Assembly (NCBI GenBank): GCA_947258435.1 | Contig: CAMYID010000019.1 | Span: 1-64,000, forward strand | From: an uncultured Alphaproteobacteria bacterium | GTDB lineage: Bacteria; Pseudomonadota; Alphaproteobacteria; UBA11222 | Length of the DNA: 64,000 bases | Direction: 5' to 3' | Translations under genes and position numbers: made by a program | Notes under the pieces: model-generated | The model's input: only the letters and a program-made list of their open reading frames with translations | Databases searched by the model: none | Told to the model about the DNA's origin: nothing | In this document: piece by piece, positions 41,590 through 45,301 of the stretch | Layout of the letters: each line of letters starts with the position of its first letter | How positions within the stretch are numbered: position 1 is the stretch's first letter

Positions 41590-42606
41590 CTATTCCTCCT
41601 CCCGCACGAACGGGCGCGACAAGAGTTCGGCAATCGCCGCCTCGACCCCCTCCTGCCCGTCAAGTATCGCGGAAACCGCAGCACAGATCGGCATTTCGAC
41701 CTGCTCCCGCGCAGCCAGCTGTGCGGCCGCATGCACCGTATGGGCTCCCTCAAAGACCGAGCGCGAGCCGGCAAAAATCGCCGCAAGTTTCTCGCCCTGC
41801 CCCAACCGGTAGCCCAGTGTAAAATTGCGCGATTGCCGGCTGTTACAGGTCAATGCCAGATCGCCGACGCCGGCCAGCCCCAGCATGGTTTGCGGCTGAC
41901 CGCCCATCGCGATGGCAAGCCGGGTGATTTCGGCAAGTCCGCGCGTCATCAGCGCAGCGCGGGCGCTATCGCCATAACCGCCCCCTTCCGCTATGCCGCA
42001 CGCAATCGCAATGACATTCTTCATGGCACCGCAAACCTCGACCCCGATCATATCGTCGGTCAGATAGGGACGAAAAGTGGCGGTACCAAGCGCCTGGACA
42101 AGCGCCATACCCAGATGCGCCTGCGCAGCCGCAAGCGTTACCGCAGTCGGCAGCCCGCGTGCCACCTCGGCCGCGAAACTCGGCCCGGACAAGGCGGCAA
42201 GCGGCGCATCGGGCAATATGGCCGCCACAACCTCATTCATCAGATTGAGTGTTGAATTCTCGATCCCTTTTGCACAGATAACAACCGGTGTCCCGGCCCG
42301 TGCCGCTGCAGGCAATTGCCCGGCAACCTGGCGCAGAAACTGCGCCGGTACCGCCAAGATCAATGCATCGCACGCCGCCGCCATTGCGATATCATCGGTG
42401 GCCCGCAGCGCGTCGGGCAAAGCAATGCCGGGCAGATAATGCGGGTTTTCATGATCTCCGTTGATCGCGGCAACGATGTCGCTGTCGCGCGCCCATAGCA
42501 GCACTTCGCGCCCGGCACGCACTGCGGCGCAGCCAAGCGCGGTGCCAAACGCACCGCCGCCGATGATGCCGATGGACTGAAACTGCCGTGACTGGGTCAA
42601 AACCAC
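41590..42606 (-). CDS. gpsA: Glycerol-3-phosphate dehydrogenase [NAD(P)+]
   Basis: A 338-residue GpsA. It has the Rossmann motif IGGGAFGTALG (about 15-25), the lysine in ICAKGIEN, LSGPSFAAEVARGLPTAV and the catalytic-region GAMKNVIAIACGI, in the expected order. It makes sn-glycerol 3-phosphate for phospholipids. The start codon is GTG. In relatives tsaD is directly upstream; here 1.6 kb of opposite-strand DNA (TetR and two microproteins) lies between. Confidence 0.95.
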   Translation of the reverse strand: MVLTQSRQFQSIGIIGGGAFGTALGCAAVRAGREVLLWARDSDIVAAINGDHENPHYLPGIALPDALRATDDIAMAAACDALILAVPAQFLRQVAGQLPAAARAGTPVVICAKGIENSTLNLMNEVVAAILPDAPLAALSGPSFAAEVARGLPTAVTLAAAQAHLGMALVQALGTATFRPYLTDDMIGVEVCGAMKNVIAIACGIAEGGGYGDSARAALMTRGLAEITRLAIAMGGQPQTMLGLAGVGDLALTCNSRQSRNFTLGYRLGQGEKLAAIFAGSRSVFEGAHTVHAAAQLAAREQVEMPICAAVSAILDGQEGVEAAIAELLSRPFVREEE

Positions 42607-42646: not shown

Positions 42647-42734
42647 ACCCGCGGGACGAAGCGATAATCGCAAATCATACGCCTGTCGCTTGGCAATTGC
42701 GTGAATGGAGGATGACAAAAACCTAAATCTTTTA

Positions 42735-42765
42735 TTGAAGATTCATTATTTAGAACTATTATAAA
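42735..42765 (+). promoter_or_regulatory. Candidate promoter of the TetR gene
   Basis: TTGAAG (42735-42740) followed by TATTATAAA (42757-42765) with a 16-18 base spacer, in AT-rich DNA 28 bases before the start codon. AAAGG just upstream of the ATG can serve as the ribosome-binding site. Confidence 0.5.
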
Positions 42766-42792: not shown

Positions 42793-43413
42793 ATGCCCAG
42801 GACAGACACAATTCGCACTAAAATCATCGAGGCTGCGCGCCGTCGCATTGGCCGCTATGGCTATTGCAAAACGACTATGGCCGAACTCGCCGCCGATTGC
42901 AGCATGTCGCCCGGCAACCTTTACCGCTATTTTCCGGGAAAACTCGATATTGCTGCGGAAATCGCCCGCAACGCCTTTGAGGAAACGATCGCTGCGCTGC
43001 GCGCTGTGGTGCGGCAACCGCAATGCTCGGCCACGCAACGCCTGCGCGACTTCCTATTCACCGAACTTCGCGTGACATATGAGCAGCTGCATCACGATGA
43101 AAAGATCCATGATGTGGCGGAGATTATCAAGCGCGAACGTCCCGAAGCCGCTAATGAGAATTTGGCGCAAAGTCGTTCACTGCTGGTGGAGATCCTGTCC
43201 ATGGGTAATGCCAATGGTGAACTGGACGTACCCAATGTGGTGGAAGCCGCCGAAATGATCCAATGCGCCACCATGAAATTCCGCTATCCCCAGCTTTTCT
43301 CCCAACTTTCACTGGATGAGCTGGAACGTGAGCTTGAGGGCGTAATTACATTGCTGTTGCGCGGAATTGCGAAAATGCAGCCCGCAGACACCTCCTCCCA
43401 CCAGGCCGCATAA
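42793..43413 (+). CDS. TetR/AcrR family transcriptional regulator
   Basis: A 206-residue regulator. The N-terminal helix-turn-helix is typical (KIIEAARRRIGRYGYCKTTM, then ELAADCSMSPGNLYRYFPGK, about 12-53). The C-terminal ligand domain cannot be placed in a subfamily by eye. It sits on the strand opposite the tsaD-gpsA block, followed by an AT-rich stretch and two microprotein genes on the same strand, its most likely targets. A palindrome 16 bases past its stop is a possible operator. Confidence 0.9.
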   Translation: MPRTDTIRTKIIEAARRRIGRYGYCKTTMAELAADCSMSPGNLYRYFPGKLDIAAEIARNAFEETIAALRAVVRQPQCSATQRLRDFLFTELRVTYEQLHHDEKIHDVAEIIKRERPEAANENLAQSRSLLVEILSMGNANGELDVPNVVEAAEMIQCATMKFRYPQLFSQLSLDELERELEGVITLLLRGIAKMQPADTSSHQAA

Positions 43414-43428
43414 AATTTTTGACAGCAG

Positions 43429-43446
43429 ATTCACATTTTTGTGAAT
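43429..43446. promoter_or_regulatory. Perfect palindrome ATTCAC-N6-GTGAAT (possible TetR operator)
   Basis: ATTCAC (43429-43434) and GTGAAT (43441-43446) flank ATTTTT. The same half-sites recur at 43601 (GTGAAT), 43633 (ATTCAC, inside the candidate promoter) and 42701 (GTGAAT, before tetR), as expected for an autoregulated TetR unit. It could equally act as a weak hairpin after tetR. Confidence 0.45.
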
Positions 43447-43623
43447 ATTCTTCGTAATATTTTTTACTAATCCTGGATTTCCGATTTTTGGACCCCGATC
43501 CTGGTTTTCCCATAAAATATTGATTTTTATTGTATAAATTGAATCAAGGTGGGAAATATTTTCCAGCGTTGCCCCTCTTCCATATTTTTTTCTGAATAAT
43601 GTGAATATTTTTCATTTTATTCA

Positions 43624-43651
43624 TTGTTTTCTATTCACACTCCCCTATATA
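43624..43651 (+). promoter_or_regulatory. Candidate promoter of the microprotein pair
   Basis: TTGTTT (43624-43629) and TATATA (43646-43651) separated by 16 bases, with an ATTCAC half-site in the spacer. It would give a leader of about 80 bases before the first microprotein. Confidence 0.5.
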
Positions 43652-43737
43652 GAAATTATCCGGCAGGCAGGACAATTCATTCCCGTGAATTCCCGCTTTG
43701 CCAACAAAATTTCGTGACCCTGTTGATGGAGAGAATG

Positions 43738-43860
43738 ATGAAAAACCTGATCCGCAATACGAACCTGCACAATATCGCAACTGCGCTGACCGGCTTTGGC
43801 CTGACAGCCTATGCCCTGACGATTGTCGCGAACGCGGCGCTCGCCTACGGCGTTCTCTGA
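43738..43860 (+). CDS. Small single-span membrane protein, first of a tandem pair (40 aa)
   Basis: A 40-residue peptide. A polar N-terminus (KNLIRNTNLHN) is followed by one hydrophobic helix and a short tail; the pattern IATALT, then YALTIVANAA recurs in the next gene. GGAGAG (43728-43733) precedes the start; two ATGs (43735, 43738) are adjacent and the second is better spaced. I do not recognise the family. The neighbouring homolog, the good ribosome-binding site and the TetR gene upstream argue that it is real. Confidence 0.75.
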   Translation: MKNLIRNTNLHNIATALTGFGLTAYALTIVANAALAYGVL

Positions 43861-43884
43861 CGATGATTTAGCGGAGTGAATACA

Positions 43885-44001
43885 ATGCGCAAATTTCCCA
43901 GCTCCGACCGGATCGCGGATGCGCTGACCTATATCAGCGGCACGGTCCTTGTCGTCTATGCGGCAACGCTGGTGGTCAACGCCGCGAGATGGGTTGTCTA
44001 G
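43885..44001 (+). CDS. Small single-span membrane protein, second of a tandem pair (38 aa)
   Basis: A 38-residue peptide starting MRKFPSSDRIADALT, with one transmembrane helix and the tail VNAARWVV. Against its neighbour, IA-x-ALT matches at 5 of 6 positions and LVVYAATLVVNAA matches LTAYALTIVANAA at 8 of 13, so the two are paralogs. GGAG (43873-43876) lies 8 bases before the ATG. It is 24 bases after the first gene, so both are likely on one message. Function is unknown; a membrane-protein modulator or stress peptide is only a guess. Confidence 0.72.
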   Translation: MRKFPSSDRIADALTYISGTVLVVYAATLVVNAARWVV

Positions 44002-44066: not shown

Positions 44067-44087
44067 GGAATGTGAGCTTCCTCCCCT

Positions 44088-44111
44088 GGCGCGGCAGCGT
44101 TTAGCCGCGCC
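44088..44111. terminator. Hairpin downstream of the microprotein genes
   Basis: GGCGCGGC (44088-44095) and GCCGCGCC (44104-44111) form an 8-bp perfect stem with an 8-base loop. No T run follows, so it may stabilise a 3' end rather than terminate. Confidence 0.45.
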
Positions 44112-44152
44112 GAAAAACTGGCCGGATTGTCCACGCCGCGCAGATGTCCCGC

Positions 44153-44183
44153 GCCGGCTTCATGGCAGTCCGGCCTCTTTTTT
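44153..44183 (+). terminator. Candidate intrinsic terminator of the microprotein unit
   Basis: GCCGG (44153-44157) pairs with CCGGC (44170-44174) and is followed by CTCTTTTTT. A longer-range pairing of GGCCGGA (44120-44126) with TCCGGCC (44169-44175) is also possible. It faces the end of tsaD. Confidence 0.55.
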
Positions 44184-44230
44184 GCCTGCCGAATGCCCGC
44201 CCCGGTAACACGCCGCCAGACGCGCGGAGG

Positions 44231-45301
44231 TTAGCCCTGCAACTGCGTCAATGGCCAACGCGCACGTGGCGCCACATCAAGCGGATCGGACAGGCCAAGC
44301 GCGAAGCGTTCCACCCCGGCCCATGCGATCATCGCACCATTATCAGTGCACAGATGGAGCGGTGGGACCGTCTGGGCGAACCCCATTTCCGCGCACAGGC
44401 CCGACAAGGCGGCTGCAATCGCACGGTTTGCGGCCACCCCGCCGGCAATCACAAGCTGCGGCGGCTTCTCGGCATGCACCGCGTGGAACAGCCGCATGGC
44501 CCTTGCCGTACGGTCGACCAGCACATCGCACACCGCCAACTGAAAAGCAGCAGCGATATCAGCGGCATCGCGATCGGTTAGCTTGTCGAGCTTGCCAATC
44601 GTATGCAGCACGGCCGTTTTCAGGCCCGAGAATGAAAAATCGCAATTATCGCGCCCCACCATCGGTCGCGGCAGTGCGAAACGGGAGGCATCTCCCACAC
44701 GGGCGGCCGCTTCGACAGACGGGCCACCGGGATAGGGCAGATCAAGCATTTTCGCAGTTTTATCGAAGGCTTCCCCGATCGCATCGTCAAGCGTCGTGCC
44801 AAGCCGCTCATACCGCCCGACACCGCGCACAAGCAGCAGCTGACAATGCCCGCCCGAAACCAGCAGCAGCAGATAGGGAAAGGCCACATCCGCACTTAAC
44901 CGCGGGCTCAGCGCATGACCTTCCAGATGATTGACCGCAAGCAATGGCAGATTACGCGCAGCTGCTATCGCCTTACCGGTGACAAGCCCCACCATCACTC
45001 CCGCAATAAGGCCCGGCCCCGCCGTTGCCGCCACCGCATCAAGCGCGTTCCAGTCCAGATCCGCTTCCTCCATCGCGGTAGCGATAATGCCATCGAGCTG
45101 CTCGACATGCGCGCGGGCGGCGATTTCGGGCACCACACCGCCATAAGGGCGATGCGCATCGAGCTGGCTCAGAACCACATTGGAAAGGATCTCACGCGCG
45201 CCATCGGGGTGCCCGCGCACAATCGCGGCCGCGGTTTCATCGCAACTTGTTTCAATGCCAAGCAGGGTGTAACGCTGCTCTACTGAACCGGCGGACGTCA
45301 T
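44231..45301 (-). CDS. tsaD: tRNA N6-adenosine threonylcarbamoyltransferase TsaD
   Basis: A 356-residue ASKHA-fold protein. [15 protein letters not shown] (about 13-27) opens the nucleotide site; the iron-binding histidines are in [12 protein letters not shown] (about 121-132); and [11 protein letters not shown]-like [12 protein letters not shown] is near 290. It transfers threonylcarbamoyl to A37 of tRNAs reading ANN codons. A much longer open frame exists upstream, but the ATG at 45301 fits the family start and leaves hemC a promoter region. Divergent from hemC. Confidence 0.95.

Follow-up and report, generated by a model that had tools for sequence, protein, structure and literature searches.

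The window, the 64,000-nt stretch of DNA analysed here, belongs to a 2.88 Mb draft genome of an alphaproteobacterium (G000, contig C19), whose closest relatives in the named collection are MAGs of uncultured organisms. The genes of the locus are arranged in the order EVE, YCII, and gpsA (all on the minus strand), tetR, p1, and p2 (all on the plus strand), tsaD (minus strand), and then hemC and hemD. The conserved neighbour gpsA (glycerol-3-phosphate dehydrogenase; 41590..42606, minus strand) is divergent from tetR, and occupies this upstream, divergent position in 73 of 80 TetR loci. The convergent downstream neighbour tsaD (44231..45301, minus strand) is likewise convergent in 40 of the 48 operator-bearing loci with enough flanking sequence.

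The two short genes encode microproteins with one transmembrane helix each. The p1 gene (43738..43860, plus strand) starts with the ATG at 43738, with a second in-frame ATG at 43735, and its stop codon ends at 43860; the product has 40 residues (MKNLIRNTNLHNIATALTGFGLTAYALTIVANAALAYGVL). After a gap of 24 bases, p2 (43885..44001, plus strand) runs from the ATG at 43885 to a stop codon ending at 44001, and encodes 38 residues (MRKFPSSDRIADALTYISGTVLVVYAATLVVNAARWVV). The motifs IAxALT and YAxT[IL]VxNAA are common to both products. The tandem paralogous single-span microproteins of the initial annotation were thus borne out to the residue in coordinates, lengths, and motifs, and the good Shine-Dalgarno (SD) sequence that it ascribed to each gene was located as GGAGAG at 43728 (p1) and GGAG at 43873 (p2). 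The promoter and terminator that it proposed to be common to both genes also held up. A single predicted promoter (43624..43651, plus strand) lies ahead of both, with TTGTTT (43624-43629) and TATATA (43646-43651) separated by 16 nt, a -35/-10 layout that recurs in the aligned sites. The probable terminator (44120..44183, plus strand; GGCCGGATTG...CAGTCCGGCC TCTTTTTT) consists of a stem (44120-44129 paired with 44166-44175), followed by the T run TCTTTTTT. The 102 nt around it (44085-44186) have a folding z of -4.7, and a comparable hairpin and T run follow the microprotein genes of a congener (G001).

Both genes are kept in place in this congener, and the p1 product is 71% identical to its counterpart. 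The dN/dS values of 0.29 (p1) and 0.16 (p2) indicated purifying selection, and the two genes jointly gave a pN/pS of 0.30 (bootstrap 95% 0.19-0.47), with third codon positions carrying 15 of the 26 differences in p1 and 18 of the 28 in p2. Two further microprotein clusters had pN/pS values of 0.40 and 0.25, and values of about 1 or more in shifted frames; the second microprotein of Parvibaculum had a pN/pS of 0.9, with little synonymous bias. A match in another genome (G013) was rejected as a chance match with internal stops. The synonymous bias in relatives named in the initial annotation was therefore found, and so were the homologs: a family profile, which p1 and p2 fit, detects related proteins next to TetR orthologs in dozens of genomes. 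Because they are kept in the congener, have a joint pN/pS of 0.30, and have these relatives, p1 and p2 are more than chance reading frames, and are predicted to be genuine paralogous single-span microprotein genes under selection.

The tetR gene (42793..43413, plus strand) encodes a regulator of 206 residues, which belongs to the TetR family by its Pfam domains, orthologs, and AlphaFold model. The product matched PF00440 (TetR_N, 6e-12) and PF17935 (TetR_C_27, 9e-11), and its model (pLDDT 87.7) matches TetR structures, resembling many generic TetR proteins about equally (TM about 0.7). The helix-turn-helix and the helical ligand domain of the family were both recognised by Pfam and fold matches, and comparison of loci revealed a putative palindromic operator at its own promoter, TGAAY-N12-RTTCA, with a spacer of 12 only. 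Orthologs (E<1e-30) were found in 51 of 385 sampled genomes, and span much of the class; a search for the protein on plasmids gave no match.

Using the TetR alignment, 80 related loci were fetched, in which tetR is closely followed by short ORFs (about 30-50 codons), each with an SD and a single hydrophobic helix. Proteins of 28-51 residues, in one to four copies per operon, lie beside the TetR orthologs in 53 of the 79 assessable loci. The family profile recovers 76 proteins (median 37 residues), of which 64 have a recognisable SD. One column of the alignment, the helix Tyr, is nearly invariant, and conserved positions recur about every 3.5 residues (L at -3, Y at 0, L/F at +4, and Q/N/E/H at +7), on one face of the helix. 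The helix core is nearly free of charged residues, and the N-terminal part is net positive in 30 of 58 proteins and net negative in 8. In two-gene operons, an aromatic residue 10-13 positions after the Tyr is present in 23 of 34 first proteins vs 4 of 34 second proteins (kinship ignored). Because of this difference, the two genes appear to be distinct paralogs of long standing, and p1 and p2 fit the first- and second-gene types, respectively, by eye. The leaders of the microprotein mRNAs (about 50 loci) have a hairpin at the predicted 5′ end, with a sequence that differs between species and a mean z of -1.1; it was found in 49 of 51 leaders compared with 37.7 expected, and is possibly a stabiliser.

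Recognisable microproteins (E<1e-3) were present in 16 of 385 genomes of the class, all of which also have the TetR; most genomes compared are MAGs. The lack of profile matches outside TetR-bearing genomes is informative, but its sensitivity is limited, as the profile misses remote subfamilies. Sequence divergence among the subfamilies is extreme, and their common descent would be indicated partly by position and operator. The module is predicted to be ancestral to a large part of the Alphaproteobacteria. Scans of the microproteins against Pfam, NCBIfam, and PHROGs gave nothing above chance, a profile search of the PDB with the family returned chance matches only, and neither this TetR nor the peptide family turned up in literature searches. 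The view of the initial annotation that no described family fits was thereby upheld, and the literature searched appears to contain no account of the family, its operator, or its breadth.

The proposed link between the regulator and the microproteins is a shared palindrome. The candidate operator of the microprotein operon, TGAAT-N12-ATTCA (43602..43623, plus strand), abuts the -35 box, and alignment of 38 promoter regions gave the consensus TGAAnAnTGAATATTTTTnATTTTATTCATTGTTTTTCATTCA, followed by a CTATAT-like -10. The 22-bp core is TGAAY-N12-RTTCA, and the adjoining TTG begins the -35 box. A second predicted operator, TAAAT-N12-ATTCA (42724..42745, no strand assigned), lies at the tetR promoter, the place and spacing at which TGAAY-N12-RTTCA occurs in nearly all of the 80 loci. 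Perfect matches with a spacer of 12 were found upstream of tetR in 37 of 79 loci, compared with 0 to 4 loci for the other spacers from 4 to 20 and 0 or 1 for shuffles. One palindrome with one spacing at both promoters is as expected for a TetR protein acting on both.

In the genomes scanned, near-exact copies of the operator are largely restricted to the tetR and microprotein promoters. The microprotein operator TGAAT-N12-ATTCA is the sole perfect match in the genome of the window. The long form of the operator was found in 23 of 30 genomes, nearly always at a microprotein promoter, and the remaining matches comprised the palindrome read in antisense and a few isolated sites with one mismatch. 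The tetR form occurred in 14 of 16 genomes, at one site each, and the placed sites compared adjoin tetR. Backward controls of these scans were zero, save for one site each in two scans, one of them for the tetR form. A qualifying micro-ORF followed 61 of 90 operator sites (unique, with at most one mismatch), compared with 0.9% of random and 10% of AT-rich positions, in a biased sample of loci chosen by TetR or operator, in which neighbouring species are non-independent. The sites lacking such an ORF include antisense readings, sites whose micro-ORF fell short of the thresholds, and a few that occur by chance.

Eight other near-operator matches in the genome of the window were inspected; the majority overlap or border long ORFs, and several are one repeated coding motif. 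This motif, TGAATCnGTrTGCGG...TCATTG, resembles the operator and recurs in several coding regions (L029, L031, L035, and L036), with at least some copies within one repeated gene family (SADSHxTEPP proteins). One of the eight, with two mismatches, is intergenic (L033). The initial annotation had proposed control by the adjacent TetR through an ATTCAC/GTGAAT pair. The pair exists as ATTCAC-N6-GTGAAT (43429-43446; ATTCACATTTTTGTGAAT), at one place in the genome, but is not common to both promoters and was rejected as the operator in favour of TGAAY-N12-RTTCA; the proposed control itself gained strong comparative evidence. The repeat lies just past the tetR stop codon, a similar inverted repeat is found at the same place in the congener, and it may mark the end of the tetR transcript or be an extra site.

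The best comparative evidence that the TetR controls the microproteins is that the operator travels with them. On the TetR tree, loss of adjacency needs only three changes, which correspond to a clade of 20 (including Rhizomicrobium), Zavarzinia, and a pair of Parvibaculaceae-like genomes; the non-adjacent cases are mostly relocations. In Zavarzinia (G047, G269, and G409), two to four microproteins are encoded away from tetR, and N12 sites precede each operon. A Parvibaculaceae genome (G400) has a perfect operator at a microprotein operon on another stretch. Among 14 Rhizomicrobium-like genomes with the tsaD locus, nine have the operator followed, at about 130-150 nt, by a single-span ORF of about 41 residues with an SD beside tsaD, tetR and gpsA being elsewhere; a tenth genome has the ORF but no clear operator, and neither was found beside tsaD in the other four. 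One genome (G003:C96, L208/L258) has a second operon of three microproteins with the operator and without tetR, a duplicate of the tetR-linked one. Operator searches alone uncovered unrecognised microproteins (L240 and L252), and further families whose TetR is about 45% identical again have both operators and a 37-residue ORF. Taken together, these comparisons strongly support a dedicated TetR autorepressor, which would control the microprotein operon through TGAAY-N12-RTTCA.

Some variants of the arrangement were also seen. Four tandem microproteins with two N12 sites, the last two near-identical, occur in a genome of the Zavarzinia group (G269:C3, L236/L257). A further microprotein relative, about 60 codons long and lacking a clear operator, was found elsewhere (G104:C304, L206/L225). 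In another family (L277-L280), the operator pair is kept, and the downstream 37-residue ORF (MSVSSTETRQGIF..., MTLSKTESRQS...) looks very unlike the profile members.

A dedicated TetR regulon of membrane microproteins is, on balance, the probable overall explanation. In the proposed mechanism, a TetR dimer would bind TGAAY-N12-RTTCA at two promoters, its own and that of the microproteins, covering or abutting the -35 box, and would repress both, until repression is relieved by a ligand, which is probably hydrophobic, like those of many TetR proteins. The operon of one to four genes, each presumably translated from its own SD, would then yield single-span inner-membrane microproteins, with the N terminus predicted to be inside by the positive-inside charge bias. 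The existence of the module and its regulation can be held with high confidence. The microproteins might pack through the heptad-spaced face L(-3)-Y(0)-L/F(+4)-Q/N/E(+7), mutually or with a membrane partner, and such oligomer or partner binding is evenly balanced as a proposition. Their most likely purpose would be to adjust the inner membrane or a membrane enzyme upon a lipid-related or stress signal.

A role in membrane-lipid homeostasis is suggested by gpsA, a supplier of the phospholipid backbone. In most of the 80 related loci, the tetR operator lies upstream of the likely gpsA start (median 37-44 bp), and because of this position gpsA may be co-regulated by the same TetR. A FadR-like ligand would likewise fit this purpose, which can be put forward tentatively. 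The fuller proposal is of an undescribed ancestral alphaproteobacterial module for membrane homeostasis, in which the TetR would respond to a lipid intermediate and govern both gpsA and a microprotein hetero-oligomer, the latter modifying the inner membrane or a lipid enzyme; this proposal is speculative and rather unlikely in all its parts.

Other readings of the peptides and their control were weighed. It is possible, if doubtful, that the microproteins are accessory subunits clamped on one large membrane enzyme or transporter, as AcrZ is on AcrB or CydX on cytochrome bd, with the TetR tuning the partner. Their size, single helix, and conserved polar helix face are consistent with such a role, and accessory subunits tolerate much sequence change, as CydX does (PMC4325964). 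However, the original and relocated sites that were inspected have no linked partner gene, and the neighbours of the relocated operons revealed no consistent partner by eye. The microproteins have no Pfam match to known small subunits (35 family members searched against Pfam-A at E<=0.1 gave neither AcrZ nor another named small-protein family as a consistent match), and one to four paralogs per operon would be unusual for a fixed subunit.

Bilayer-acting stress peptides (YohP- or TisB-like), which would lower membrane potential or fluidity, slow metabolism, and be tightly repressed as harmful in excess, are a less likely identity. Dedicated repression and sequence freedom with conserved hydrophobicity are in keeping with it, as is the precedent of YohP (PMC12719787), whereas the helix core carries hardly any charge, unlike an amphipathic pore peptide, the genes have long been retained vertically, and the conserved Tyr and Gln point to a specific packing. 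Pumps are the targets of many TetR proteins. That the microproteins modulate an efflux pump, as raised by the initial annotation, with a drug-sensing TetR in control, has the AcrZ precedent (PMC7267776) in its favour but is improbable, as the inspected neighbourhoods contain no pump gene, none lies under a convincing operator copy, and near-exact operators elsewhere are rare and chance-like. The other role that the initial annotation raised, a signal of membrane stress, is a possible one. That another regulator uses the operator, and the TetR just happens to lie nearby, is very improbable, given that identical half-sites and spacing mark tetR's own promoter and that every genome with recognisable microproteins has the TetR. 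An untranslated RNA as the conserved element, with the peptides incidental, would suit the common 5′-end hairpin, and is next to negligible in view of the synonymous bias of p1, p2, and the two other clusters, the frequent SDs, and the conserved residues.

Small membrane proteins are hard to recognise, as they contain little sequence information. The 22-bp operator marks microproteins across families with dissimilar peptides, so that the site of the regulator becomes a detector of the family. A TetR with itself and the microprotein operon as its only well-supported targets also offers a clean genetic handle: loss of tetR should raise the microproteins almost by themselves, so that what they do could be tested directly in Zavarzinia, Parvibaculum, or Tepidicaulis, which can be cultured.

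Several known systems resemble parts of this module. Sequence or fold searches with the regulator matched, among others, TetR-type FadR repressors (Bacillus 3whb and Sulfolobus SaFadR 6en8). However, identity is 20-21% in the fold alignments, the protein scored 35 bits for the FadR equivalog NF053878 (cut-off 200), and the only well-supported operator sites are at tetR and the microprotein operon, rather than at fatty-acid genes. AcrZ, the AcrB-associated small protein of E. coli (PMC7267776), is also a small single-helix inner-membrane protein, but has another sequence and acts on a known pump, whereas the present paralogs lie in tandem beside their own TetR, with no linked pump. CydX, a cytochrome bd subunit, is a single-helix protein of 37 residues with few conserved positions (PMC4325964); it belongs to cydAB operons, whereas the neighbours of the module are gpsA, tetR, tsaD, and hemC, with no cyd gene and no Pfam match. 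The 27-residue E. coli stress microprotein YohP (PMC12719787) is likewise a tiny single-span protein without catalytic activity. Its sequence is different from those of the family. YohP is not known to have a dedicated TetR or tandem paralogs. TisB and other type I toxin peptides are controlled by antisense RNA or the SOS response, and arrest growth on expression, whereas the microproteins described here are predicted to be controlled through a TetR operator.
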